Origin: an uncultured Acidobacteriota bacterium
Lineage (GTDB): Bacteria > Acidobacteriota > UBA6911 > CAINFC01
NCBI GenBank assembly: GCA_903847975.1
Contig: CAINFC010000160.1
Span: forward strand, 1-52,693
Direction of reading: 5' to 3'
Length of the DNA stretch: 52,693 bases
This document shows positions 461 through 12,080 of this stretch, one piece after another; position 1 is the first letter of the stretch; each line of letters begins with the position of its first letter. Made by a program: the position numbers and the translations under genes. The notes below the pieces were generated by a model that was not told the origin of the DNA, did no database searches, and saw only the letters and a list, made by a program, of their open reading frames with translations.

Positions 461-1525
461 ATGCCGGATAAAGAACAGCGAACAGAAGATCCAACTGGAC
501 GACGATTAGCCAAGGAGCGGGAGCAGGGCAACCTGTTCCGCAACCGGGATATCGTCATTGCCGGGCTTTTCCTGGCGGAGATCATGCTTCTCAAGTCTGT
601 CCTTTCCAACGGGTACCATGAGTACAAGAGCTACATGCAGGATCTTTTTCGGGCTCCCGTTCCCTCGGAATTCACTCTGGAATATACCCAGGGTCTGATC
701 AATGCCATTCTGATCCTGGTTACAAAAATTGTGGGACCCCTGATCGTCCTGGTCCTGGTGCTAACTTTCGTGGGACTGTTTGCCCAGGGGGGCTGGAATT
801 TTACCTTTGAGCCACTGGGATTCAAGCTGGACCGCATTCTTCCCAAGAACAACTTCCTGAAAATCTTCTCCAAGTCGGGCCTGGTTCGTCTGGCGAAGGA
901 GGCGCTGCTCTTTGCGGTGATTGCCATATTCTCCTACAACCTGATCACCGATGTGTGGGCTCAGCTGCCGGTCTGGGGCAAGGTTTCCCCTGAAATCAGC
1001 ATGTTCAAGGCTCTTTCCTTCAGCTACGGTCTTGCCTGGAACGTCGGGGTCACCTACCTCGGCATCTCGATCCTCCTCTTTCTGTTTGAAAAGCATCAGT
1101 TCAAAACCGGGCTGAAAATGACCAAGCAGGAAGTGAAGGACGAAGTCAAGGATCAGGAAGGGAATCCCCAGATCAGGGGCAAAATACGCAGCCTGCAGAT
1201 TCAGGCCGCCCGCCGGCGGATGATGAAAGCCGTTCCGGAAGCGACGATGGTGGTCACCAACCCGACGCACTATGCCGTAGCGCTCAAGTATGATCCGAAA
1301 TCCATGCCGGCCCCGACAGTCGTCGCTAAGGGTAAGAACCTGATTGCCCAGAAGATCAAGGCCATAGCGCAGGAGCACAAGGTCCCGGTGGTGGAAAACA
1401 AGCCGCTGGCTCAGCTGTTGTACAAGAAGGTGGAAATCGGCGAAATAATCCCGGTGGAACTCTATCGCATCGTCGCGGAAATGCTGGCTTATGTCATGCG
1501 TCTGCGGGAAAAAGCCTATCACTAA
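461..1525 (+). CDS. flhB: Flagellar export switch protein FlhB
   Basis: FlhB is the substrate-specificity switch of the flagellar type III export gate in the inner membrane. The 354-residue length is normal. The N-terminus starts with the charged EDPTGRRLAKEREQGN segment typical of FlhB, followed by four hydrophobic segments between about residues 27 and 215. The cytoplasmic domain carries the self-cleavage site NPTH at residues 267-270 (cut expected between N267 and P268), then VAKGKNLIAQKIKAIA and VVENKPLAQLLY, both hallmark FlhB blocks. The start at 461 follows a purine-rich AGAAGAG. flhA follows after 43 bp. The missing fliP, fliQ and fliR would be expected upstream or elsewhere. A non-flagellar type III homologue is unlikely because the neighbours are all flagellar. 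Confidence 0.97.
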   Translation: MPDKEQRTEDPTGRRLAKEREQGNLFRNRDIVIAGLFLAEIMLLKSVLSNGYHEYKSYMQDLFRAPVPSEFTLEYTQGLINAILILVTKIVGPLIVLVLVLTFVGLFAQGGWNFTFEPLGFKLDRILPKNNFLKIFSKSGLVRLAKEALLFAVIAIFSYNLITDVWAQLPVWGKVSPEISMFKALSFSYGLAWNVGVTYLGISILLFLFEKHQFKTGLKMTKQEVKDEVKDQEGNPQIRGKIRSLQIQAARRRMMKAVPEATMVVTNPTHYAVALKYDPKSMPAPTVVAKGKNLIAQKIKAIAQEHKVPVVENKPLAQLLYKKVEIGEIIPVELYRIVAEMLAYVMRLREKAYH

Positions 1526-1568
1526 CCGCTTTCGTCGCGCCGGATTTCTCCCCGGAGTGGCATGAATA

Positions 1569-3686
1569 TTGCTCCAAAAGTCAGCGGATAAAAATATTAT
1601 GGCAGCCACGGAATCCGCAACCATCAACCAGACCCTGTTTGGAGAAAAGTCCCATCTCGTCGTTCCGGTCGCAATCATCGCCGTCCTGTTTATCATCGTG
1701 GTCCCTCTGCCAACGCTGATCATGGACCTTCTGATCGCCACCAACCTGACGCTCTCGTTCCTGCTGCTGATGGTTTCCATCTACGTGGCCCGCACGCTGG
1801 ACCTGTCGGTTTATCCCTCTCTGCTGCTTCTGCTCACCCTGTTTCGCCTGGCTCTCAATATCGCCTCCACCCGACTGATCCTGCTGCACGGAGAGGAGGG
1901 AACCCAGGCCGCCGGCGAAATCATTCAGGCCTTCGGGCAGTTCGTGGTCGGCGGCAACTTTATCGTCGGCATCATCATTTTCCTGGTGATCATAGTGGTG
2001 CAGTACATGGTCATCAACACCGGTTCCAGCCGGATTTCCGAAGTCACCGCGCGCTTTACCCTGGACGCCATGCCCGGCAAGCAGATGGCTATCGATGCCG
2101 ATCTGAACGCCGGCTTTATCGACGAAAAGGAGGCTCGTTCCCGGCGCGAAAAGATCGCTCAGGAAGCCGATTTTTACGGCTCCATGGACGGGGCCATCAA
2201 ATTCGTCCAGAAGGATGCCGTGGCGGGGATCATCATAATCCTGATCAACGTCATCGGCGGCTTTCTCATCGGCGTCCTGCAGAAAGGGATGACCCTGAGC
2301 AGCGCACTGGAAGTGTATACAATCCTGACGGTAGGTGACGGTTTGGTGACAGCGCTTCCCTCCCTGCTGGTTTCCATATCCGGAGGCATGCTGACCACTC
2401 GCGCCTCCACCCAGGACCGCACCCTGGGAGAAGCCGTCAGCGTTCAGCTGTTCGGCATGAGCTCGCCGCTGTCGCTGGCCGCCGGCCTGATCGGCCTGGT
2501 CGGGTTGATTCCCGGCTTTCCGAAGCTGGCCTTCTTTCTGCTTTCTGCCGCCGCCGGGTTTATGGCCTACACTTTGAACAAGACCAAGGCCGCGCGGGAA
2601 AAGGCCCAGGCCGCCGCCAAGGACGGGCCGGGAGCGGAATCCGCCCCTGCGCCTGTGGAAAAAGTGGAGTCCCTGCTCCGATTGGATCCTCTTTCGGTTG
2701 AAATCGGATTCGGACTGATCAACATGGTGGACCCGGCGCAGGGCGGCGATTTTCTGCAGCGAGTCAAGATTATCCGGCGGCAGCTGGCCCAGGAGCTGGG
2801 AATCATCGTGCCGCCCATCCACGTGGTGGACAATTTACAGCTGAATCCGCGGGAGTACTCCATCCTGCTGCGGGGCGTGCAGATCGCCAAGGGCGAGCTT
2901 TTGCAAAACCAGCTGCTGGCGGTCAACTCCGGAACCGCCCAGGAGGGGCTGGGCGGGATCGATACCAAAGACCCGGCTTTCCATATGGAAGCAAAATGGA
3001 TCCAGCCGGCCGAAAAGGAGCGGGCCATCGTTCTGGGATACGCGGTGGTCGATGCTCCCACCGTCCTGGCAACCCACCTGACGGAAACCATCAAGGCTTA
3101 CTCCCCCGACCTGCTCGGACGGCAGGAAGTGAAAACCCTGATCGACTCGGTCAACGAAACCCATCCGAAGGTGGTGGAGGAGCTGATACCCAAATTAATG
3201 TCGATCGGCGACGTGCAGAAGATTTTGCAAAACCTGTTGCGGGAGAGTGTGCCGATCCGGGACCTGGTAAGTGTTCTGGAAACCCTGGCCGACTATGCTC
3301 CCATGACCAAAAACCCGGTTCTGCTTACCGAATATGTCCGTCAAAGCCTGTCGCGGAGCATCTGCAACAACTACGTCAACGAAAACGGCGAGCTGCTGGC
3401 CTTTACCTTGAGTCCGGAACTGGATCAGGCCATTTCTCAATCCGTTACCCACAACGAGCTTCTTTCCGTTTGGAATCCGGACCCGCGGTTTGCCAAGGAA
3501 CTTCTGGCCAAAATCCGCAATATGGTATCCCCCGGGGCCGATGCCTCCGGGGTTCTGATCTGCAGCAGCAATTCACGGCCGCATATCCGGCAGCTTGTGG
3601 CTCCCTACATGCCCAAGCTGGCCATACTGTCCCATAACGAAATTCCCATGACCATCCGTTTCATCTCCCTGGGTATGGTGAAATAA
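1569..3686 (+). CDS. flhA: Flagellar export gate protein FlhA
   Basis: FlhA is the large export-gate protein of the flagellar type III apparatus. It has eight predicted membrane helices in the first about 330 residues and a cytoplasmic substrate-docking domain after that. The FHIPEP-family signature is plain at about residues 157-200 (RFTLDAMPGKQMAIDADLNA, then the FIDEKEARSRR block). The linker at about 338-362 is Ala/Pro rich. The TTG at 1569 has a well-spaced GGAGTGG, giving 705 residues. An in-frame ATG at 1599 would shorten it by 10 residues and cannot be excluded. The C-terminal part is complete and ends with SLGMVK. The gene sits between flhB and flhF, as in many polar-flagellate genomes. 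Confidence 0.97.
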   Translation: MLQKSADKNIMAATESATINQTLFGEKSHLVVPVAIIAVLFIIVVPLPTLIMDLLIATNLTLSFLLLMVSIYVARTLDLSVYPSLLLLLTLFRLALNIASTRLILLHGEEGTQAAGEIIQAFGQFVVGGNFIVGIIIFLVIIVVQYMVINTGSSRISEVTARFTLDAMPGKQMAIDADLNAGFIDEKEARSRREKIAQEADFYGSMDGAIKFVQKDAVAGIIIILINVIGGFLIGVLQKGMTLSSALEVYTILTVGDGLVTALPSLLVSISGGMLTTRASTQDRTLGEAVSVQLFGMSSPLSLAAGLIGLVGLIPGFPKLAFFLLSAAAGFMAYTLNKTKAAREKAQAAAKDGPGAESAPAPVEKVESLLRLDPLSVEIGFGLINMVDPAQGGDFLQRVKIIRRQLAQELGIIVPPIHVVDNLQLNPREYSILLRGVQIAKGELLQNQLLAVNSGTAQEGLGGIDTKDPAFHMEAKWIQPAEKERAIVLGYAVVDAPTVLATHLTETIKAYSPDLLGRQEVKTLIDSVNETHPKVVEELIPKLMSIGDVQKILQNLLRESVPIRDLVSVLETLADYAPMTKNPVLLTEYVRQSLSRSICNNYVNENGELLAFTLSPELDQAISQSVTHNELLSVWNPDPRFAKELLAKIRNMVSPGADASGVLICSSNSRPHIRQLVAPYMPKLAILSHNEIPMTIRFISLGMVK

Positions 3687-3709: not shown

Positions 3710-5092
3710 ATGAAAATAAAGACTTTTAATGCCGCTCAGCTGTCCGAAGCGATCGCCGAAATCAAGAAAGAGCTCGGCGAGGATGCTCTGATCCTTTCCA
3801 CCAAGGAAGTGGAATTCCGCAAGGAGCCCAACCAGCCGCCGGTTAAAGGTTATGAAGTAGTGGCCGCCGGAGATCCCGCGCAAACGGCGGTCAAGGAAGA
3901 ACCCAGGGAAGCGCGGCGGCCGGTTTCGACACCGGCCGCTCTGGCCGCCAGGAAAGCCTACCAGGCGGCTCCCCCGGCTCCGCCTGCGCCGGTGGCACCA
4001 CTCCGGGCTTTCCCTCCCTCCCGAGCGGCGGCCGGCCCGATTCTCCCTCCGGCCCTGACCGACCTTCTGGAGTCCGCTGCTGTCAGAAAGATGCCGGCCA
4101 GGCCGGCGGCCGTGGAAAAAGTCGCTGCCCGGGAGACCGAAGAGCCGGAGAAACCGGCGAACCCCGCACCGCCTCCCGCTGCCGCCGGAAAAACACCCGA
4201 TTCCATCGCCCGTGAAATGATAGAATTAAAGCGGCTCATTCGCTGGTCGGCCCAGTCGGTGGTTTCTTCCCGTTTTCAGTCGGTAGATCCCGATGCCGAT
4301 GCCCTTTTCATCGACCTGATTGCGAATGACATGGATGAATCAATTGCCAGAAAGATCGTTACGGAAGCGCGCAAACGCATGGAAAAAAGCCGCCAGGAAA
4401 TCGGCATCGACAGTGCAGCACGGGAAGTGTTCCGCGAAATGGTGCAGATTGTTCCCATCGACGAGCGGTTTTCTTCCCGGACGGTAGCCATTTTCCTTGG
4501 TCCGACCGGAGTGGGCAAAACTACCACCATCGCCAAGCTGGCCTCCCGGTTCGCGCTGGAGCTGGGGCGCAAAACCCTGCTGATCACGCTGGATACCTAT
4601 CGCATCGGGGCCGCCGAGCAGTTGCGGATTTATGCCGACCTGATCGGCATTCCGCTGCTGGTGGCCAACAGCGTCCGTGAACTGGACCGCCAGCTCCGGG
4701 AGCATACCGAGGCCGAGGTGATTCTCATCGATACCGTGGGAAGGGCGCACGGGCGCCTTTTTCAGCTGGCCGACCTGGCTGAGTATGTCAAGGACAAGGA
4801 CTGGATTGAAAAGCACCTGGTCCTCAGCCTGACCACCAAGCCGCTGGACCTCCGGGAGACGATCGAGGCCTATGAAATGTTCGGCACCAACAAGCTGCTT
4901 TTCACCAAGCTGGATGAGACCATTACCAACGGTACGGCAGCCAACGAGCTGATCCGCACCCAGAAACCGCTGGCCTATATGACCAACGGCCAGAACGTTC
5001 CCCAGGACATCCAGATTCCCACCCCGGGCTCTTTTGCGGAATTCATCATCAGCCGGGAACAGCAGGAAGATCTAAGGATGGCATATGCATGA
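3710..5092 (+). CDS. flhF: Signal-recognition-type GTPase FlhF
   Basis: FlhF is the SRP-family GTPase that sets the site of flagellar assembly, usually a pole. Residues 1-50 form the small basic N-terminal part. Residues about 60-165 are a variable Ala/Pro/Glu-rich B-type linker. Residues about 180-455 are the NG domain, with the P-loop GPTGVGKT at 264-271, the DTYRIGAAEQL block at 295-305 and TKLDE at 399-403. The G3 motif reads DTVGR instead of the usual DTAGR, a mild change. The length of 460 is ordinary. The gene starts 23 bp after flhA and overlaps flhG by 8 bp, so FlhF and FlhG are probably made in linked amounts, in line with their known antagonism. Confidence 0.96.
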   Translation: MKIKTFNAAQLSEAIAEIKKELGEDALILSTKEVEFRKEPNQPPVKGYEVVAAGDPAQTAVKEEPREARRPVSTPAALAARKAYQAAPPAPPAPVAPLRAFPPSRAAAGPILPPALTDLLESAAVRKMPARPAAVEKVAARETEEPEKPANPAPPPAAAGKTPDSIAREMIELKRLIRWSAQSVVSSRFQSVDPDADALFIDLIANDMDESIARKIVTEARKRMEKSRQEIGIDSAAREVFREMVQIVPIDERFSSRTVAIFLGPTGVGKTTTIAKLASRFALELGRKTLLITLDTYRIGAAEQLRIYADLIGIPLLVANSVRELDRQLREHTEAEVILIDTVGRAHGRLFQLADLAEYVKDKDWIEKHLVLSLTTKPLDLRETIEAYEMFGTNKLLFTKLDETITNGTAANELIRTQKPLAYMTNGQNVPQDIQIPTPGSFAEFIISREQQEDLRMAYA

Positions 5093-5951
5093 CCAGGCAA
5101 CCACTCTGAGAGAAAAAATTCGTATGCGCCAAACACAAACCATTTTGGGTCTTAAGCCGGGGGCGGAGTCACTGGGCGGTCCGGAGTCGGTGCAGACGCA
5201 CGTCATTGCCGTAACCAGCGGGAAGGGGGGGGTGGGTAAAACCAACACGGTGGTGAACCTGGCGGCGGCGCTGAACCTCCGGGGAAAAAAAGTCCTGATC
5301 CTGGACGCCGATTTTGGCCTGGCCAATATCGATGTGCTGCTCGGCCTGGCTCCGCAGCACCACCTGGGTGATTTCCTGAGCGGGGAGAAGACACTCCGCG
5401 AAATCATCGTCTCCACTCCCCAGGGGATTGCCATCATTCCTGCGGCTCCGGGAATCCAGACCCTCAGCCACCTGGACGAGTCGCAGACCCAGCGGCTGTT
5501 TCTGGCCCTGGATGACCTGATCAAGGACTACGAATATTTTTTTATCGACACCTCAGCCGGCATTTCCGACAATGTGACCCGCCTCTTGATTGCCTCCCAG
5601 CAGATTATCGTGGTCAGCTCGCCGGACCCCACCGCCATTGTCGATGCCTACGCCCTTATCAAAATTGTCCTGCAGCTGGACCCCTCGCGGCAGCTGAGCA
5701 TCCTGATCAACTCCGTTACCGGGAGCCAGGAGGCGGAGCAGATCTTCGCCCAGCTTTCCCGGGTAACCCAGCGGTTTCTGGCCCGTGAGCTGCGCTACCT
5801 GGGATATGTGCAGTTCGACGACAAACTGAGCGGTGCGGTGCGGGCGCAGCGCGCCGTCGTCCTGGAGTTTCCCTTCAGCCCCTCCAGCCGCTGCTTCCGA
5901 AACCTGGCCAAGGCGCTGATTCCCCCGGAGGCCGGCGAGACCGGATCCTGA
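5085..5951 (+). CDS. flhG: MinD-like ATPase FlhG (flagellar number regulator)
   Basis: This is a ParA/MinD-family ATPase of 288 residues that limits flagellar number and stimulates FlhF. The deviant Walker A motif KGGVGKT lies at residues 47-53, and the LDADFGLANIDVLLGL block follows at about 73-88. The N-terminus reads HDQATTLRE, matching the DQAxxLR activator motif known to switch on FlhF GTPase activity. This separates it from plain MinD. The C-terminus lacks an obvious long amphipathic helix, although the segment around SRCFRNLAKAL is basic and amphipathic. The start at 5085 overlaps flhF and is preceded by AAGGATGG. The gene lies directly before the sigma-28-type gene, the classic flhF-flhG-fliA order. 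Confidence 0.95.
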   Translation: MHDQATTLREKIRMRQTQTILGLKPGAESLGGPESVQTHVIAVTSGKGGVGKTNTVVNLAAALNLRGKKVLILDADFGLANIDVLLGLAPQHHLGDFLSGEKTLREIIVSTPQGIAIIPAAPGIQTLSHLDESQTQRLFLALDDLIKDYEYFFIDTSAGISDNVTRLLIASQQIIVVSSPDPTAIVDAYALIKIVLQLDPSRQLSILINSVTGSQEAEQIFAQLSRVTQRFLARELRYLGYVQFDDKLSGAVRAQRAVVLEFPFSPSSRCFRNLAKALIPPEAGETGS

Positions 5952-5976: not shown

Positions 5977-6744
5977 ATGCTCAAGCAGCTGAAGAACTTT
6001 CTGGACCGCGGCGATGCCGGGACGGCCCTGCCCGAACGGGAACAGATTATCCTTGAGCATCTGCCCCAGATCAAGTATATTGCCCATCGGATCCATGCCC
6101 GGGTTCCCAAGGGAGTGGAGCTGGACGACCTGATTGGCGCGGGAATCGTCGGGCTGATGGATGCGATCGCCAAATTTGAGCCGGAAAAGGGGGTCAAGTT
6201 CAAAACCTACGCGGAAGTGCGGATCCGCGGCGCCATTCTCGACAGCCTCCGTGCCCTGGACTGGGCTCCCCGCAAGCTGCGGCAGAAAAGCCGGGAGCTG
6301 GAAGCGGTCATGCACCGGCTGGCGCAAAGAGAGCAACGGCCGGCCACCGACCAGGAGATTGCCGATGAGCTGAAAATCTCCCTGGTGGAATTTTACGAGC
6401 TGCTCAATGAGCTGAAAAGCGTGAACCTGGGGGGCTTCCACACCATGGCGTCTTCGGCAGATTACGACGCCGAGGAATCGGAGGTGCGCTATTTCCCTTT
6501 TGCCCCGGTGCCGAGTCCCTATCATGTCTTTCAGAAAGAGGAGGTCATCGAGCGGCTGTCGGAAGCCATCCAGAATCTTCCGGTTCGGGAGCAGGAAGTA
6601 CTGTCATTATATTATCTGGAAGAGCTGACCATGAAGGAGATCGGCGAAGTGATGGGAATTACCGAGTCCCGGGTATGCCAGATCCACTCCCGGGCGGTGC
6701 TGCGGCTGCGGGGCATGCTGATGGAAGCCGCTTCACCGCTGTGA
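5977..6744 (+). CDS. fliA: Flagellar RNA polymerase sigma factor FliA (sigma-28 family)
   Basis: This 255-residue FliA/WhiG-type sigma factor would direct transcription of late flagellar and chemotaxis genes. Region 2 is clear: GVELDDLIGAGIVGLMDAI, FKTYAEVRIRGAILDSLR and DWAPRKLRQKSRELE. Region 3 follows (TDQEIADELKISLVEFYELL). Region 4 has the helix-turn-helix block LPVREQEVLSLYYLEELTMK, then IGITESRVCQIHSRA. The length and lack of region 1 fit FliA. No FlgM anti-sigma gene is visible in this window. I searched the gaps before cheX and the other plus-strand genes for the TAAA-N15-GCCGATAA type of promoter and found no good match. Confidence 0.96.
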   Translation: MLKQLKNFLDRGDAGTALPEREQIILEHLPQIKYIAHRIHARVPKGVELDDLIGAGIVGLMDAIAKFEPEKGVKFKTYAEVRIRGAILDSLRALDWAPRKLRQKSRELEAVMHRLAQREQRPATDQEIADELKISLVEFYELLNELKSVNLGGFHTMASSADYDAEESEVRYFPFAPVPSPYHVFQKEEVIERLSEAIQNLPVREQEVLSLYYLEELTMKEIGEVMGITESRVCQIHSRAVLRLRGMLMEAASPL

Positions 6745-6795: not shown

Positions 6796-7806
6796 ATGGC
6801 AAAAAAACGTGGCGATAAGATCCTCAGTCAGGAAGAGATCGATGCTCTATTCAAAGCCATGCAGGAGGGGAAGAGCGAAACGGAGCCTTCCTCCACCGTT
6901 CCTGCGGCTCCGGCCAAGAAGGTTCTCAAGTACGATATTCGCAAGCCGGACCGCATTTCCAAGGACCAGATCCGCTCCCTGCACCTGATTCACAATTATT
7001 TTCAGCGGAGCTTCTCCTCGTCCCTGTCCGCCTACCTGCGCGCCTTCGTGGAAATCAAGCTGGTTTCCATCGAGCAGATTACCTACAGCGAGTTCCTGGA
7101 GTATATTGCCGAACCCACCTGCTACAACTCCATCAATATGAGCCCGATGGAGGGTAACATGGTGATGGAGCTCAGTTATCCGGTGGTGTTTCCCATGCTG
7201 GACCTGCTGCTGGGGGGGACCGGATTGCCGCCCAAGGAGGAGCGGGCCATCACCGATATCGAGTGGAGCATCATCGATGGCGTCATTCAGCTGGCCATGA
7301 AAGACCTGAAGGAGGCCTGGAAGCCGGTGGTCGACCTGCAGCTGAACGTCACGGCCCGCGAGTCCAAGCCGCAGCTGCTGCAGTTTGTATCTCTATCCGA
7401 GCCGGTGGTGGCCGTCGGGCTGGAAGTGCGCATCGGCTCCAATACCGGGTCCATGAATCTGGGCATCCCGTCCATTATTCTGAAGCTGATCCGGCACAAG
7501 TTCGAACAGCAGCAGTGGGCCATGCGACGCAAGGAGGATATCGCCAGGGACCAGGCCCGGCTGTATGGCGCCCTGCCATCGATTCCTGTGGACCTCAGCG
7601 CCGAAATCCGGGGAACGACCATCAGCATCCGCGATTTTCTGGACCTCAGCGTGGGAGACGTTCTGACCCTGGATCACTACGCCGAGAAACCCATCCAGGT
7701 GGCGATCGAAGGAAGGCCCTATTACCTGGGGCACATTGTCAACTTCCAGGAGCGCAAGGGCGTATACCTGGAGTCCGCGGCCACGGAAAAGGAAATTTAC
7801 CTTTAA
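6796..7806 (+). CDS. fliM: Flagellar motor switch protein FliM
   Basis: FliM (336 residues) is the C-ring protein that binds phospho-CheY and reverses the motor. The N-terminus ILSQEEIDALFKAM at about residues 9-22 is the EIDALL-type CheY-binding peptide. A linker of about 25 residues follows. Next comes the CheC-like middle domain with DQIRSLHLIHNYFQRSFSSS and LGGTG. The C-terminal SpoA (FliN-like) domain covers about residues 260-330 (RDFLDLSVGDVLTLD). A strong Shine-Dalgarno stretch (AGGAAAGGAAG) precedes the ATG. The binding peptide means the CheY encoded 3.4 kb downstream could act on this motor directly. Confidence 0.97.
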   Translation: MAKKRGDKILSQEEIDALFKAMQEGKSETEPSSTVPAAPAKKVLKYDIRKPDRISKDQIRSLHLIHNYFQRSFSSSLSAYLRAFVEIKLVSIEQITYSEFLEYIAEPTCYNSINMSPMEGNMVMELSYPVVFPMLDLLLGGTGLPPKEERAITDIEWSIIDGVIQLAMKDLKEAWKPVVDLQLNVTARESKPQLLQFVSLSEPVVAVGLEVRIGSNTGSMNLGIPSIILKLIRHKFEQQQWAMRRKEDIARDQARLYGALPSIPVDLSAEIRGTTISIRDFLDLSVGDVLTLDHYAEKPIQVAIEGRPYYLGHIVNFQERKGVYLESAATEKEIYL

Positions 7807-7849: not shown

Positions 7850-8725
7850 ATGGTAGACACGATTAAAAAAATCCCCAACCCGGAAGAGATCATCGACCTG
7901 TGGGTCACGATCTGCAAGCAGGCTTTCAACCAGGCAGTGGATGCCAAAGGAGCCGTGGAGCTGGCGGATGTACAGGTGAACGAGACCGGGCCGGCCGAAT
8001 ATGTCAAACCGGGATGTATCTTTCTGCGGATCGACAAGGGCGGCCAGGGAGGATTTGTGGTTGCCGGAACCGAGCCGGGTTTCGCCTCCGACCAGATCCT
8101 CCAGACGGCAGGGAAGGAAGCCGGCTCGCTTTTCCCCCTGTTTATGGAGGAGATCGTCCGGGTTTGCCAGAACGCCTTTGGTCCCTTCATGCAGTGCACC
8201 CAGGCTCCGGCGGATTCGGCCCGGGGAGCGGTGCTGAAAGAAGAGGGTCTGGGCTACTATCTCGTTCTGGCGGCGACCACCTCCAACAAGTCCAACTATA
8301 ACGTTGAATTTTACTTTTCCCCTGACCTCTGCCTGATGCTGGAGGAAAACAGCAAGCCGCCCGCCGTCAAGCCCGCGGCCCCACCGAAACCTCCTGCCCC
8401 GCCTCCGCCCCCGCCCCCGCCGCGGGAGGATGCCCGCTCCGCCGCGGCCAGGGGAGGGTATTCCAAGAACATCGAGCGGATCATGGACATCGATCTGCCC
8501 CTGACGGTCAGCTTTGGCCGCACGCGAATGCTTTTGAAGGACGTGATGAAGCTCGGTACGGGATCGATCATCGAACTGGACCGGACGGCCGACGATCCGG
8601 TGGATTTGTGGGTGAACGATAAGAAGGTGGCCCGCGGAGAAGTGGTGATCGTCGGCGGCAATTACGGGGTGCGGATTACCGAAATCGAGAACGTGGCGGA
8701 AAGGATCAATACCCTGCGAGACTGA
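7850..8725 (+). CDS. fliN: FliN-family switch protein with extra N-terminal domain
   Basis: Residues about 208-286 are a clear FliN/SpoA domain (IMDIDLPLTVSFGRTRMLLK, LGTGSIIELDR, GEVVIVGGNYGVRITEI), which forms the lower C-ring and binds export cargo. Classical FliN is about 100-140 residues; this protein has 291. Residues 1-168 form a separate domain I do not recognise by motif. It starts NPEEIIDLWVTICKQAFNQA and carries LFPLFMEEIVRVCQNAFGPF. Its position matches the CheC-like part of FliY, but I see no ExxN phosphatase motif. Residues 169-200 are a proline-rich hinge with a run of nine or more prolines. SD-like TAGGAAG precedes the start, 43 bp after fliM. The FliN call is firm; the front domain is undefined. 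Confidence 0.9.
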   Translation: MVDTIKKIPNPEEIIDLWVTICKQAFNQAVDAKGAVELADVQVNETGPAEYVKPGCIFLRIDKGGQGGFVVAGTEPGFASDQILQTAGKEAGSLFPLFMEEIVRVCQNAFGPFMQCTQAPADSARGAVLKEEGLGYYLVLAATTSNKSNYNVEFYFSPDLCLMLEENSKPPAVKPAAPPKPPAPPPPPPPPREDARSAAARGGYSKNIERIMDIDLPLTVSFGRTRMLLKDVMKLGTGSIIELDRTADDPVDLWVNDKKVARGEVVIVGGNYGVRITEIENVAERINTLRD

Positions 8726-8801: not shown

Positions 8802-9263
8802 ATGGACATGCTCTCCCTGATTCTGGGCCTCATTCTTGCCCTGCTGTGCGGGTGCGTGGCTGCCTGCGTCCGGATCTATTTCCGCCAACAGGAATCGGAA
8901 AAAGAGATCCGCCAGCTCAAGGAGGTTCTGCAGGCCTTTTTGTCCATCCAGGAGCGCAATATCGCCGAGATTCGCGCCGAGCTGCAGTCGGCACCGGCGC
9001 CTCCGGCCAAAAAGACGAGCGGCCCGGGACCGGGGAGTGCCGCGGAAAAGAAAAACCTGGCGGAAGAGCCGGGACCGGGAGATCTTCTTTACGCCGAATC
9101 CCAGGAGAAAGCGCAGCGCAGGCGCTACGTATGGGAGCTGGCGGATCAGGGGCTGAGCGTCGAGGAAATTGCCCGCCGCACCCAGCTTCCTCTGGGGCAG
9201 ATCGATGTCATTCTGAACATGCGCGGCATAAGCCAGGAAGGGAGCAAACCGCCATGGCGCTGA
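8802..9263 (+). CDS. Small membrane-anchored coiled-coil protein of the flagellar operon
   Basis: The 153-residue protein has one N-terminal membrane helix (residues about 4-26, ILGLILALLCGCVAACVRIY). A charged coiled coil of about 45 residues follows (ESEKEIRQLKEVLQ to RAELQ), then a flexible Pro/Ala/Gly-rich stretch. The conserved C-terminal block is about 108-145 (YVWELADQGLSVEEIARRTQ, then LPLGQIDVILNM). This layout, with a helix-turn-helix-like tail, matches the DUF2802/DUF6115-type proteins often found at the end of flhF-flhG-fliA operons. Their function is unknown to me. A membrane or motor-linked accessory role is only inferred from position. AAGGA precedes the start. Its stop overlaps the next reading frame. 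Confidence 0.75.
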   Translation: MDMLSLILGLILALLCGCVAACVRIYFRQQESEKEIRQLKEVLQAFLSIQERNIAEIRAELQSAPAPPAKKTSGPGPGSAAEKKNLAEEPGPGDLLYAESQEKAQRRRYVWELADQGLSVEEIARRTQLPLGQIDVILNMRGISQEGSKPPWR

Positions 9264-10108
9264 TGCGCCGGTTTTCGGCTTATCGCTGCGCCAATCCGCG
9301 ATGTCATCGGCACGTTTCCGCACTCCGCCAGTGGCTTTTTCGCCCCCGGTCCTATGCCCTGAACGGGAGTCCCTATTGCAGCGAGAACTGCCTCCGCCCG
9401 CAGCTGCAGTCGGTTCTGAACCATTTTATTTTTCGCGGAAACCTTTCCGCCGGCCCGCTGCACCGGAGTACGATCGGGCTGATCCTGCTGGATTTCAACC
9501 TCATCACCCTGCCGCAGCTCAACGAAGTTCTGGCCCGCCAGCGGGACGGAGACCGCCGTTTTTTCGGGGAAATCGTCATCTCTCTGGGGTTTATCTCGGA
9601 GAAGCAGATCACCCTGGCGCTGAGCAGGCAGGAAGGCCTCCCCTGGCTGGACCTGGACCGCAGAAGGGTGGACCCGGCCGCCCTGCAAAAGGTTCCGCCC
9701 GAACTGGCCTTCTGTTCTCTGATCATGCCGCTGGATTTTGACCTGGGGCTTGCCGAGCTGAACGTGGTGGCCGCCGCGCCCGTGGACCGGATGGCGCTGA
9801 CCGCATTGCAGCAGATGAACCGGTGCCGGGTCAACTGCTTTATCGGACCGGAGAGCAAAGTGAAGCAGCTGCTGGCCGAAAACTACGGCCAGGAATCCGC
9901 CTCCAGGCGACTGGAGCGAAAATCGGTCCCGAAGCCGGAGGATGTTTACGCGCTGCGCGAGGAGCTGATGTACCAGTACCGCATCGCATCCGGCGTAGGG
10001 ATGGAGGTGGCTCCCTACCATAAGTCCCTCTGGATGCGAATTCACACCCCTATGGGAACCAGGGACTTTTTCTATTCGATATCTTCGGAGGAGGAGGCTC
10101 CGGCCTGA
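9254..10108 (+). CDS. Stand-alone MshEN (GspE N-terminal) domain protein with Cys cluster
   Basis: Residues about 70-212 match the MshEN/T2SSE N-terminal domain seen at the front of secretion and pilus ATPases. There are two tandem L/I-rich motifs (GLILLDFNLITLPQLNEVL.RQ, then FGEIVISLGFISEKQITLAL.RQ) separated by five residues. The usual second half follows (VPPELAFCSLIMPLDFDLGL to KVKQLLAENYG). No ATPase domain follows. In MshE this tandem motif binds cyclic di-GMP; here several consensus positions differ (N82 for the second Gly of motif 1, displaced Arg), so binding is unproven. The front carries C12-x4-C17 and C42-x3-C46, a possible zinc site. ATG 9254 follows AGGAAGGGAG; ATG 9263 is an alternative. 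The protein has 284 residues and ends the flagellar operon. Confidence 0.8.
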   Translation: MALMRRFSAYRCANPRCHRHVSALRQWLFRPRSYALNGSPYCSENCLRPQLQSVLNHFIFRGNLSAGPLHRSTIGLILLDFNLITLPQLNEVLARQRDGDRRFFGEIVISLGFISEKQITLALSRQEGLPWLDLDRRRVDPAALQKVPPELAFCSLIMPLDFDLGLAELNVVAAAPVDRMALTALQQMNRCRVNCFIGPESKVKQLLAENYGQESASRRLERKSVPKPEDVYALREELMYQYRIASGVGMEVAPYHKSLWMRIHTPMGTRDFFYSISSEEEAPA

Positions 10109-10239
10109 AGTGCGCCCTGAAGTGCGCCGGGACTGCCCTTCCGGCTCCGAGCTCAACCGTCCTGTGCCGGCTTGGGGGAAATTTTATTGCACTTTCATCT
10201 TCCGGGACAAACCGGTAGGAGGTCGCCATCTCCTTTCGG

Positions 10240-10379
10240 CAAGCACTTCCGCCTTTCTTCCCGCTCTTCCTTTCTTCCTGTGAGTCCTTTCTTTTCACAG
10301 GAAGAAGGGAAGATCAGGAAGGAAGAAAGAAGCCGTCCGTATATTTTGAGAGGGAAGAGCGACTTTTTGCGAGGTTATC
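10240..10379 (+). repeat. Polypurine inverted-repeat element, copy 1
   Basis: An imperfect palindrome of about 90 bp: the left arm at 10251-10283 (GCCTTTCTTCCCGCTCTTCC...CCTGTGA) pairs with the right arm at 10294-10332 (TCACAGGAAGAAGGGAAGAT...). It is followed by GCCGTCCGTATATTTT and a GACTTTTTGC motif at 10361-10379. Copies occur near 22.9, 28.4, 36.7 and 41.1 kb. The gap 10109-10624 (516 bp) holds this element, a short direct repeat (TGAAGTGCGCC, twice from 10106) and the cheX promoter. I see no gene in it. Confidence 0.75.
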
Positions 10380-10556: not shown

Positions 10557-10585
10557 CAGACAGATTTTAGGCATTGTTTGATAAT
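10557..10585 (+). promoter_or_regulatory. Possible sigma-70-type promoter for cheX-cheY-cheX
   Basis: A CAGACA box (10557-10562) and a GATAAT box (10580-10585) are 17 bp apart. A transcript would begin near 10592, about 33 bp before the first cheX, whose AAGGAGA lies at 10614-10620. No flagellar sigma-28 or sigma-54 pattern fits as well. This is a pattern match only. Confidence 0.4.
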
Positions 10586-10624
10586 CCCTATTTAGCGGCA
10601 GAATGCTCGAATGAAGGAGATGCA

Positions 10625-11086
10625 ATGACAACCCAGATTACCAAGAATGATTTATTGACGATCGTACAGCAGGTTTTTGAGTCCATGATGGGACTCCAGG
10701 TCGAAGATGACAGCCAGGCAGCGGCCGATTTGAGCGTTGGCGAAGTAAGCATGGCTACCATCTGCATCTCCGGCGGATGGAATGGAATTATTATATTTCA
10801 GAGCACCCGCAAGCTGGCTTCCAAGATTGCCCAGGGCATGTTTCAGCTGGACGAGGAGAGCATTTCCGCGGAAGAAACCAAAGATGCTTTTGGGGAAGTC
10901 ATTAACATGGTGGGGGGCAATCTCAAGGCCCTGCTGCCGGGGCCTTCCTCGCTGTCTCTGCCCAATGTGGTGCTCGGCACGGATTGCTCCTGGGATGTCC
11001 CCGGGGGGACGACGGTGCTGGTTTCTCTGTTCCGTTCCGTGGGCGAACCGATGAGCTGGTCGGTCATCGAAGAACAAAAAAAATAG
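10625..11086 (+). CDS. cheX: CheX-family phosphatase-like protein (first copy)
   Basis: This 153-residue CheX/CheC-type protein would be expected to remove phosphate from CheY. The family signature is present: WNGIIIFQS at about 52-60, then DAFGEVINMVGGN, in which E91 and N94 form the ExxN catalytic pair. LPGPSSLSLPNVVLG follows. The ATG at 10625 was chosen because AAGGAGA precedes it at ideal spacing; the open frame runs 17 codons further upstream without a ribosome site. It lies 94 bp before cheY, and a paralogue lies after cheY. It probably acts on the adjacent CheY, dimer-type as in known CheX. This is inferred from motif and neighbourhood. Confidence 0.88.
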   Translation: MTTQITKNDLLTIVQQVFESMMGLQVEDDSQAAADLSVGEVSMATICISGGWNGIIIFQSTRKLASKIAQGMFQLDEESISAEETKDAFGEVINMVGGNLKALLPGPSSLSLPNVVLGTDCSWDVPGGTTVLVSLFRSVGEPMSWSVIEEQKK

Positions 11087-11180
11087 CCTTATGGTATTAT
11101 AAATTAGCCTAAATGCAGAAGGGAAAGGTCGGGAGAAAAAGCAGCCGGACCTTTACACCATTACAGAAAGGTAACCGTCC

Positions 11181-11543
11181 ATGAAAGTATTAGTTGTCGA
11201 TGATTCTAAGGTGATGAGGGTTATTCTCTCCCGCATACTCAAAGAGATGGGCCACGAAGTGGTTGAGGCGGGCGACGGGCAGGATGCCCTGAAAAAGGTA
11301 GAAGAAAGCGGCGGCGTGGGGTTGGCTCTGGTCGATTGGAACATGCCCGTCATGAACGGCCTCGACTTTGTCAAGGCCCTGCGGGCCGATACCCGCTTCT
11401 GGCAGATTCCGGTGATGATGGTGACCACCGAAACGGAAATGGGCCAGGTCCAGCTTGCCTTGCAGGCCGGGGCCAACAATTATGTGACCAAGCCGTTCAC
11501 CCCGGATGTCATTCAGGAAAAATTGAAAAGTATGGGATTTTGA
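11181..11543 (+). CDS. cheY: CheY-type single-domain response regulator
   Basis: This 120-residue receiver has all the catalytic residues: D7 and D8 in the acidic pocket, D52 as phosphoacceptor (ALVDWNMPVM), T82 or T83 as the switch residue and K104 in YVTKPF. There is no output domain, so it must act by binding a partner. FliM in the upstream operon carries a matching EIDALF peptide. It is flanked on both sides by CheX-type phosphatase genes, an arrangement that points to fast signal removal. No CheA, CheW or chemoreceptor is encoded in this window, so the kinase that phosphorylates it is elsewhere. A good AGAAAGGTAA precedes the start. Confidence 0.93.
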   Translation: MKVLVVDDSKVMRVILSRILKEMGHEVVEAGDGQDALKKVEESGGVGLALVDWNMPVMNGLDFVKALRADTRFWQIPVMMVTTETEMGQVQLALQAGANNYVTKPFTPDVIQEKLKSMGF

Positions 11544-11612
11544 TTCGCCGCGGTTCCTGCTTTTTATCCAAACATTCCATTTTTGCCTGCAAACCGAACA
11601 GAGATACGGTTC

Positions 11613-12080
11613 ATGAGTGCCGAAAATTTTATTACCGAAGAAATGCTCTACCCCATTCTGGAAGATGTTTTTTCCACAATGTTCGGGATGCCGATGGAAG
11701 CCAGGGGACGGGTTTCCGAGGTTCACATTGACGGACGGGCCTGCCTCTGCAGCATCAGTATCACCGGCACCTGGAACGGCATCGTTCTGGTGCAATGCAG
11801 CGATGCCCTGGCGAAGGAAATCGGCACGGTCATGTTCTCCACCGATGCCGAAGCGATTTCCAAAGCCGAAATAAAGGACGCCATGGGGGAAATCACCAAC
11901 ATGGTGGGGGGAAACCTCAAACGGATTCTGCCGGGCCCCTCGGCCCTTTCCCTGCCGAATGTGATGTTCGGCAGTGACTTGAGCTGGAAAGTACCCGGGC
12001 CGGCCGATATCTGTATCTTTTGTGTCCTGATCTCGGGAATGCTGCTGGTGGTAACGATCGTACGAAGAGCCCAGAACTGA
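11613..12080 (+). CDS. cheX: CheX-family phosphatase-like protein (second copy)
   Basis: A paralogue of the gene before cheY. The 155-residue product shares the core WNGI...DAMGEITNMVGGNLK, with E93 and N96 as the ExxN pair, and the LPGPSALSLPNVMFGSDLSW stretch. The last about 25 residues differ sharply from the first copy: they are hydrophobic (ICIFCVLISGMLLVVTIV) where the first copy ends in a polar tail. The two copies may therefore differ in partner or location. The ATG at 11613 is preferred; a TTG at 11583 would add ten residues. The upstream AGAGA is weak. The two CheX proteins could form a heterodimer or serve different CheY proteins; the sequence cannot decide. Confidence 0.85.
   Translation: MSAENFITEEMLYPILEDVFSTMFGMPMEARGRVSEVHIDGRACLCSISITGTWNGIVLVQCSDALAKEIGTVMFSTDAEAISKAEIKDAMGEITNMVGGNLKRILPGPSALSLPNVMFGSDLSWKVPGPADICIFCVLISGMLLVVTIVRRAQN

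Follow-up and report, generated by a model that had tools for sequence, protein, structure and literature searches.

Control of flagella by cyclic di-GMP (c-di-GMP) is known mainly via PilZ proteins, FleQ, and FliI. MshEN domains are also known as c-di-GMP receptors, and their occurrence outside of ATPases has been described as well (PMC5013675). In MshE of V. cholerae (PDB 5htl) and in the GSPIIB domain of PilF from T. thermophilus, MshEN precedes a P-loop ATPase and carries two tandem 24-residue motifs. When MshE is bound to c-di-GMP, the polar (hydrogen-bond) contacts to the nucleotide come from the backbone at G11 and G40 and from the side chains of Q32 and Q61, and changing charged residues, including Arg9, Asp12, and Gln32, seemingly shifted affinity no more than fivefold (PMC5013675). 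Some MshEN domains do not bind the nucleotide, among them those of XpsE, PilF GSPII-A, and the PilB of Xanthomonas (PMC5013675, PMC12002112, PMC10333796). Proteins such as NfrB, FrgA, PA3740, and Bd2402, and other non-pilus MshEN proteins, resemble the protein described here in having MshEN outside of a classical secretion ATPase, but they have other partner domains and are not described as fliN-operon genes. There is also a flagellar gene for a c-di-GMP protein, flgZ (PMC3913639).

The protein analyzed here is encoded in a window of 52,693 nucleotides, the whole stretch of DNA under analysis, from an uncultured Acidobacteriota bacterium. An earlier note had described 9254-10108 as a free-standing MshEN domain with a Cys cluster, located in an operon of flagellar switch proteins. 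This description was confirmed. The genes from flhB to fliN were found upstream on the same strand:

461-3686, + strand: flhB (461-1525) and flhA (1569-3686), recognised from sequence, with same-order orthologues in relatives
3710-5951, + strand: flhF (3710-5092) and flhG (5085-5951), from SRP54 and ParA/MinD-type matches and synteny
5977-6744, + strand: fliA (sigma-28 type), from sigma-70 regions 2, 3, and 4 and synteny
6796-7806, + strand: fliM, PF02154 match at 6e-55
7850-8725, + strand: fliN (FliN/FliY C-terminal domain), PF01052 match at 4.6e-26
8802-9263, + strand: DUF6115/DUF2802-like small protein with an N-terminal hydrophobic helix, in a conserved partner position
9235-9244, + strand: Shine-Dalgarno-like AGGAAGGGAG, seen in the sequence itself, 9 nt ahead of the ATG
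9254-10108, + strand: the whole MshEN gene, encoding a Cys4 finger, MshEN, and an N2-like tail in 284 aa

The MshEN gene is the last in a same-strand order flhB-flhA-flhF-flhG-fliA-fliM-fliN-DUF6115-like-MshEN, and its start overlaps the DUF6115-like gene by 10 nt. The DUF6115-like protein (8802-9263) has an HTH-like C-terminus, its DUF6115/DUF2802 matches are weak, and several genomes that lack the MshEN gene still have this DUF6115-like gene behind fliN. In relatives, fliN and the DUF6115-like gene are separated by an inserted gene that looks HDOD-like by eye (L035 8359-9279; L031 11293-12249); the window has no such gene. Both flhF and flhG are present in the window and are missing between flhA and fliA in an Acidobacteriaceae-like group (f18: L039, L040, L053, L110-L114, L116-L122, and others). 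Downstream of the MshEN gene, a strong hairpin separates it from CheX and CheY genes:

10246-10332, + strand: hairpin with 38-nt arms, 82% complementary

The predicted folding of this region (window 10236-10345) was -51.6 kcal/mol (z = -7.1), with a near-perfect stem of ~20 bp plus an extension. The hairpin sits in a purine/pyrimidine-rich stretch with no T-run, and it is a possible operon end or attenuation point. A CheX - CheY-like receiver - CheX cassette follows the flagellar operon (window 10574-12080), and eight relatives (L039, L053, L114, L117, L120, L134, L137, and L144) likewise have CheY and CheX downstream of the MshEN gene.

The 284-aa protein has the following parts:

9287-9391, + strand: Cys4 cluster, residues 12-46 (C12-x4-C17-x24-C42-x3-C46)
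9470-9541, + strand: MshEN motif I, residues 73-96 (TIGLILLDFNLITLPQLNEVLARQ), with G75 and Q96 kept, T at position 1, and N at position 10
9560-9631, + strand: MshEN motif II, residues 103-126 (FFGEIVISLGFISEKQITLALSRQ), with G105, G112, and Q126 kept, and F rather than R/K at position 1
9635-9898, + strand: Pfam MshEN match (MshEN_C subdomain), residues 128-215
9923-10081, + strand: C-terminal alpha-beta-beta-beta segment, residues 224-276, which resembles the start of the PilB/GspE N2 domain

The MshEN profile match that the note had claimed was found with two libraries: Pfam PF05157 matched residues 128-215 (E = 7e-10, 39.2 bits, cut-off 23.1), and NCBIfam NF053729 (c-di-GMP_motif) matched residues 74-126 (40.8 bits, curated cut-off 38). 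The best whole-protein NCBIfam match was NfrB, and the sequence matches in the PDB were the MshEN domains of PilF, PilB, and MshE. The domain is indeed free-standing: the protein has no match to the Pfam T2SSE/ATPase domain, contains no P-loop (G-x4-GK[ST]), and ends at residue 284. It likewise had no Pfam match to PilZ. The AlphaFold2 model (11 sequences in the alignment) had a pLDDT of 81.7 and a pTM of 0.76, and in Foldseek searches it matched PilF and MshE domains, so that the MshEN fold is present in the model. The model fit c-di-GMP-bound MshE (5htl, TMt 0.81, rmsd 2.8) and PilF-GSPIIB (TMt 0.79) better than the non-binding XpsE (2d28, TMt 0.68).

In common with MshE and PilF-GSPIIB, the window protein has the fold, the tandem 24-residue motifs, each with Gly as its third and Gln as its last residue, and the Gly/Gln contacts. 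It differs from them in the absence of an ATPase, the additional Cys4 finger, the replacement of the Arg that starts each motif, and a linker of 6 residues between the two motifs. The top Foldseek match was the non-binding PilF-GSPIIA, which shares the loss of the motif-II Arg with the window copy. However, Arg (R62) and His (H33) replace the two Gln in GSPIIA, and both Gln are kept in the window protein (PMC12002112).

The sample of the phylum consisted of 396 genomes (the records among them that carry a name are Acidobacteria), which were searched with the protein and then with a 13-row profile. The profile search listed 49 family matches, 48 of them essentially end-to-end and one cut by a contig end. 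FliM was found in 101 of the 396 genomes. Among the matches listed, a family member was present in 49 of the 101 genomes with FliM versus none of the 295 without it (Fisher P about 1e-34, with relatedness ignored and only the best matches listed taken into account). Direct reading of the stretch behind fliM in 20 other FliM-containing genomes yielded three further divergent members; no MshEN gene was seen there in the remaining 17, some of which have short contigs. Roughly half of the flagellated Acidobacteriota in the sample have the gene, and by our own tally the family, whose breadth goes beyond the earlier note, covers about ten of the flagellated family-level groups, which number about nineteen. 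Linkage to flagellar genes was strong and conserved. In 47 of the 50 family loci the gene was directly downstream of fliN on the same strand, with or without the HDOD and DUF6115-like genes between, as had to be the case if the note's proposal of a flagellar role was to stand. Two of the other three loci were cut by contig ends. The one true exception (L043 9246-10070, genome G248) has the order secD-secF-hypothetical-MshEN-tatD in a non-flagellar locus, with FliM elsewhere in the genome; its motif pair is near-canonical (RLG...Q / KLG...Q).

The family is defined by the Cys4 cluster, MshEN, and the W/R tail directly downstream of fliN, all of which the window protein has. Because the whole architecture recurs at about 50 loci, the three-part protein is far beyond chance. 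In phylogenetic analysis a branch with support 97/91 separated the MshEN part of the family from the PilB/GspE ATPases found in this phylum, which argues for one origin of the family relative to those ATPases. A contig scan with the single protein gave no confirmed relative. An alignment scan found members only in Acidobacteria; Phycisphaerae, Sandaracinaceae, and Elusimicrobiales gave partial MshEN matches that had no Cys part. No description of a conserved flagellar-operon gene for a free-standing MshEN protein turned up in the open-licence literature, where this cytoplasmic family of Acidobacteriota flagellar operons is so far undescribed.

The Cys region was predicted to form a beta-hairpin followed by a helix that bears the last Cys. 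The note had pointed to a C-x4-C / C-x3-C pair, and this pair (C12-x4-C17 and C42-x3-C46) is conserved family-wide: in 41 divergent members C17, C42, and C46 were invariant and C12 was changed once, to Y. Pfam gave no zinc-finger name and no library match for this part, which from the model appears to be a treble-clef-like putative finger that probably holds zinc.

A conserved C-terminal segment that resembles the ATPase N2 domain was a further finding beyond the note. Residues 228-276 were modelled as helix-strand-strand-strand, and across the 41 members W260 was invariant and R262 changed once. In profile-profile comparison (hhalign), the family profile aligned collinearly with PilB/GspE past MshEN and into the start of N2, and the tail alone aligned with PilB/GspE at the exactly collinear N2 place (P = 0.0098). 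When the tail was modelled separately, EpsE (1p9r/1p9w) gave the top TMq among the matches listed (0.53-0.54; prob 0.92/0.84), with non-significant E values (0.64/0.93). These data are weak to moderate evidence that the tail is a truncated N2 domain. Because the profile alignment continues collinearly into N2 and the tail model matches EpsE, it is likely, though not proven, that the family descends from a pilus or secretion ATPase which lost its motor domain.

Conservation was analyzed in 41 members less than 80% identical to each other, with a median pairwise identity of 22%. The invariant residues included C17, C42, C46, G75, Q96, G105, Q126, and W260, with C12, P159, and R262 each altered once. 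Within the ligand-binding half (residues 73-126), G75, Q96, G105, and Q126 were the only invariant columns, and these correspond to G11, Q32, G40, and Q61 of MshE. Conservation at the six Leu-cluster positions likewise exceeded that of random columns (P = 0.003). Both Gln were kept in all 41 members versus 28 of 38 PilB/GspE ATPases from the same phylum, an approximate count. At 22% identity, no columns of MshEN_N are invariant other than those of the four polar contacts. Selection for nucleotide binding is the best explanation of this pattern, which is an argument that c-di-GMP binding persists in the family.

Among the members, the window copy is one of the most divergent, and the note's caution that changed consensus residues make binding uncertain was well founded. 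With T73 and N82 (position 10) in motif I and F103 in motif II, neither of its two motif copies agrees with the published relaxed motif. Arg (or R/K/P/N) at position 1, which is a feature of c-di-GMP binders and not of the fold, is missing from both motifs, and position 1 of motif II is R/K in 39 of the 41 members. In the context of PilF GSPII-A, a Ser at the site of the motif-II Arg abolished binding (PMC12002112). The window copy does keep R71, the equivalent of MshE R7, and every member has R/K at one or both of positions 71 and 73 (window 9464-9472). Members with the basic residue at 71 mostly have P/K/L/T at 73; those with it at 73 have P/A/S/H at 71. This looks like a shift of the basic residue ahead of motif I by two places. 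F103 could stack on guanine in place of the Arg. Because both motif-start arginines are lost (T73 and F103), binding by the window protein itself is uncertain: the residues put it at about even odds, and the copy may bind weakly or not at all. For typical family members the odds appear to be higher.

The c-di-GMP background of these genomes bears on the possible role. The window genome has 15 GGDEF genes and 11 PilZ matches, and the PilZ matches mean that other c-di-GMP inputs exist, a point against the adaptor explanation given below. Besides the gene described here, MshEN scored above cut-off in three other long frames of this genome (586, 615, and 777 aa), at least two of ATPase size. A 633-aa protein elsewhere in this genome (L174 158-2059, G000:C218) has several tandem MshEN_N-type motifs before a second uncharacterised domain. 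YcgR-N (PF07317) was not found in the window genome, nor in any genome of a set of 51. PilZNR (PF12945) was not found in the window genome and was present in 5 of 35 tested carriers, leaving 30 in which YcgR-type PilZ brakes were undetected. A plain replacement of PilZ brakes by this family is too simple a view, as PilZNR is present in five carriers and is also absent from many non-carriers.

The explanation that we favor, with roughly equal chances of being right or wrong, is that the family is a cytoplasmic flagellar adaptor that responds to c-di-GMP. The four-helix half of MshEN would bind c-di-GMP made by the cell's GGDEF enzymes, and binding would alter the docking of the putative zinc finger and the tail to a flagellar component; the FliM/FliN switch is the likeliest such partner, with the FlhA/FlhB export gate as the alternative. 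This change in docking would lower swimming or flagellar assembly at high c-di-GMP. The proposed job is like that done elsewhere by the PilZ flagellar brakes YcgR, FlgZ, and MotI, although the domain is unrelated. The note's proposal of a non-PilZ second-messenger input gains from the four polar contacts retained family-wide and from the lack of YcgR-type PilZ proteins in most tested carriers, and for the window copy it is weakened by the replacement of both motif-start Arg. Counting against an adaptor, many flagellated Acidobacteriota manage without the MshEN gene, one member lies outside of a flagellar locus, and operon position is silent on the target; the window copy's double failure of the relaxed motif, with the GSPII-A Ser precedent (PMC12002112), counts against it as well. 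That same failure, which is not confined to the window copy, since the relaxed motif is met twice in only 1 of 41 family members versus 10 of 38 ATPases, would suit an accessory protein of flagellar assembly or the C-ring in which MshEN is only a docking fold that no longer senses c-di-GMP. The tight fliN linkage and the MshEN domains already known not to bind (XpsE, PilF GSPII-A, and Xanthomonas PilB) would agree with such a protein, but a docking fold would not predict the four ligand contacts as the only invariant columns of MshEN_N, and the non-binding XpsE has lost G11, G40, and Q61, the equivalents of which are all kept in the family (PMC5013675). We regard this second explanation as rather unlikely.

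The two remaining explanations are less probable again. The protein could instead be a regulator of flagellar gene expression that is switched by MshEN and that binds, through its Cys4 cluster (conserved but for the one C12>Y), nucleic acid or a partner of RNA polymerase, for example FliA; fliA is within the operon and the strong hairpin is just downstream. This appears improbable, as the linkage is to fliN and not to fliA or transcription factors, no Pfam DNA-binding domain was found above cut-off in the family, and a single short finger of this type is often protein-binding or structural. The order of MshEN and N2-like tail, the same as in PilB/GspE, and the three other long-frame MshEN genes of the genome, at least two of ATPase size, would fit a PilB/GspE fragment that has no ATPase part and acts as a competitor of the N-terminal domain of the ATPase, modulates type IV pili or type II secretion, and coordinates swimming with twitching. 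Such a fragment would not be expected to be restricted to FliM-containing genomes, as the family is among the matches listed, when MshEN ATPases are near-universal in the phylum, and pil or gsp genes never adjoin the family gene in the loci that were read. We consider this explanation very improbable.

If the adaptor explanation is correct, this phylum-wide MshEN family of flagellar operons would give c-di-GMP a second type of protein through which to control flagella, and the sensor of a pilus ATPase would have been reused by the flagellum in evolution. More tentatively, and at somewhat below an even chance, the Acidobacteriota would have combined the sensory front half of a pilus or secretion ATPase with a zinc finger into a non-PilZ c-di-GMP receptor that serves the flagellar switch or the export apparatus, and this receptor would be the main c-di-GMP input to the flagellum in lineages without YcgR-type proteins. 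The about 50 orthologues, with their natural variants at the Arg positions, are a ready assay set for the ligand requirements of MshEN, and a testable role can now be assigned to a gene of about half of the sampled flagellated Acidobacteriota.
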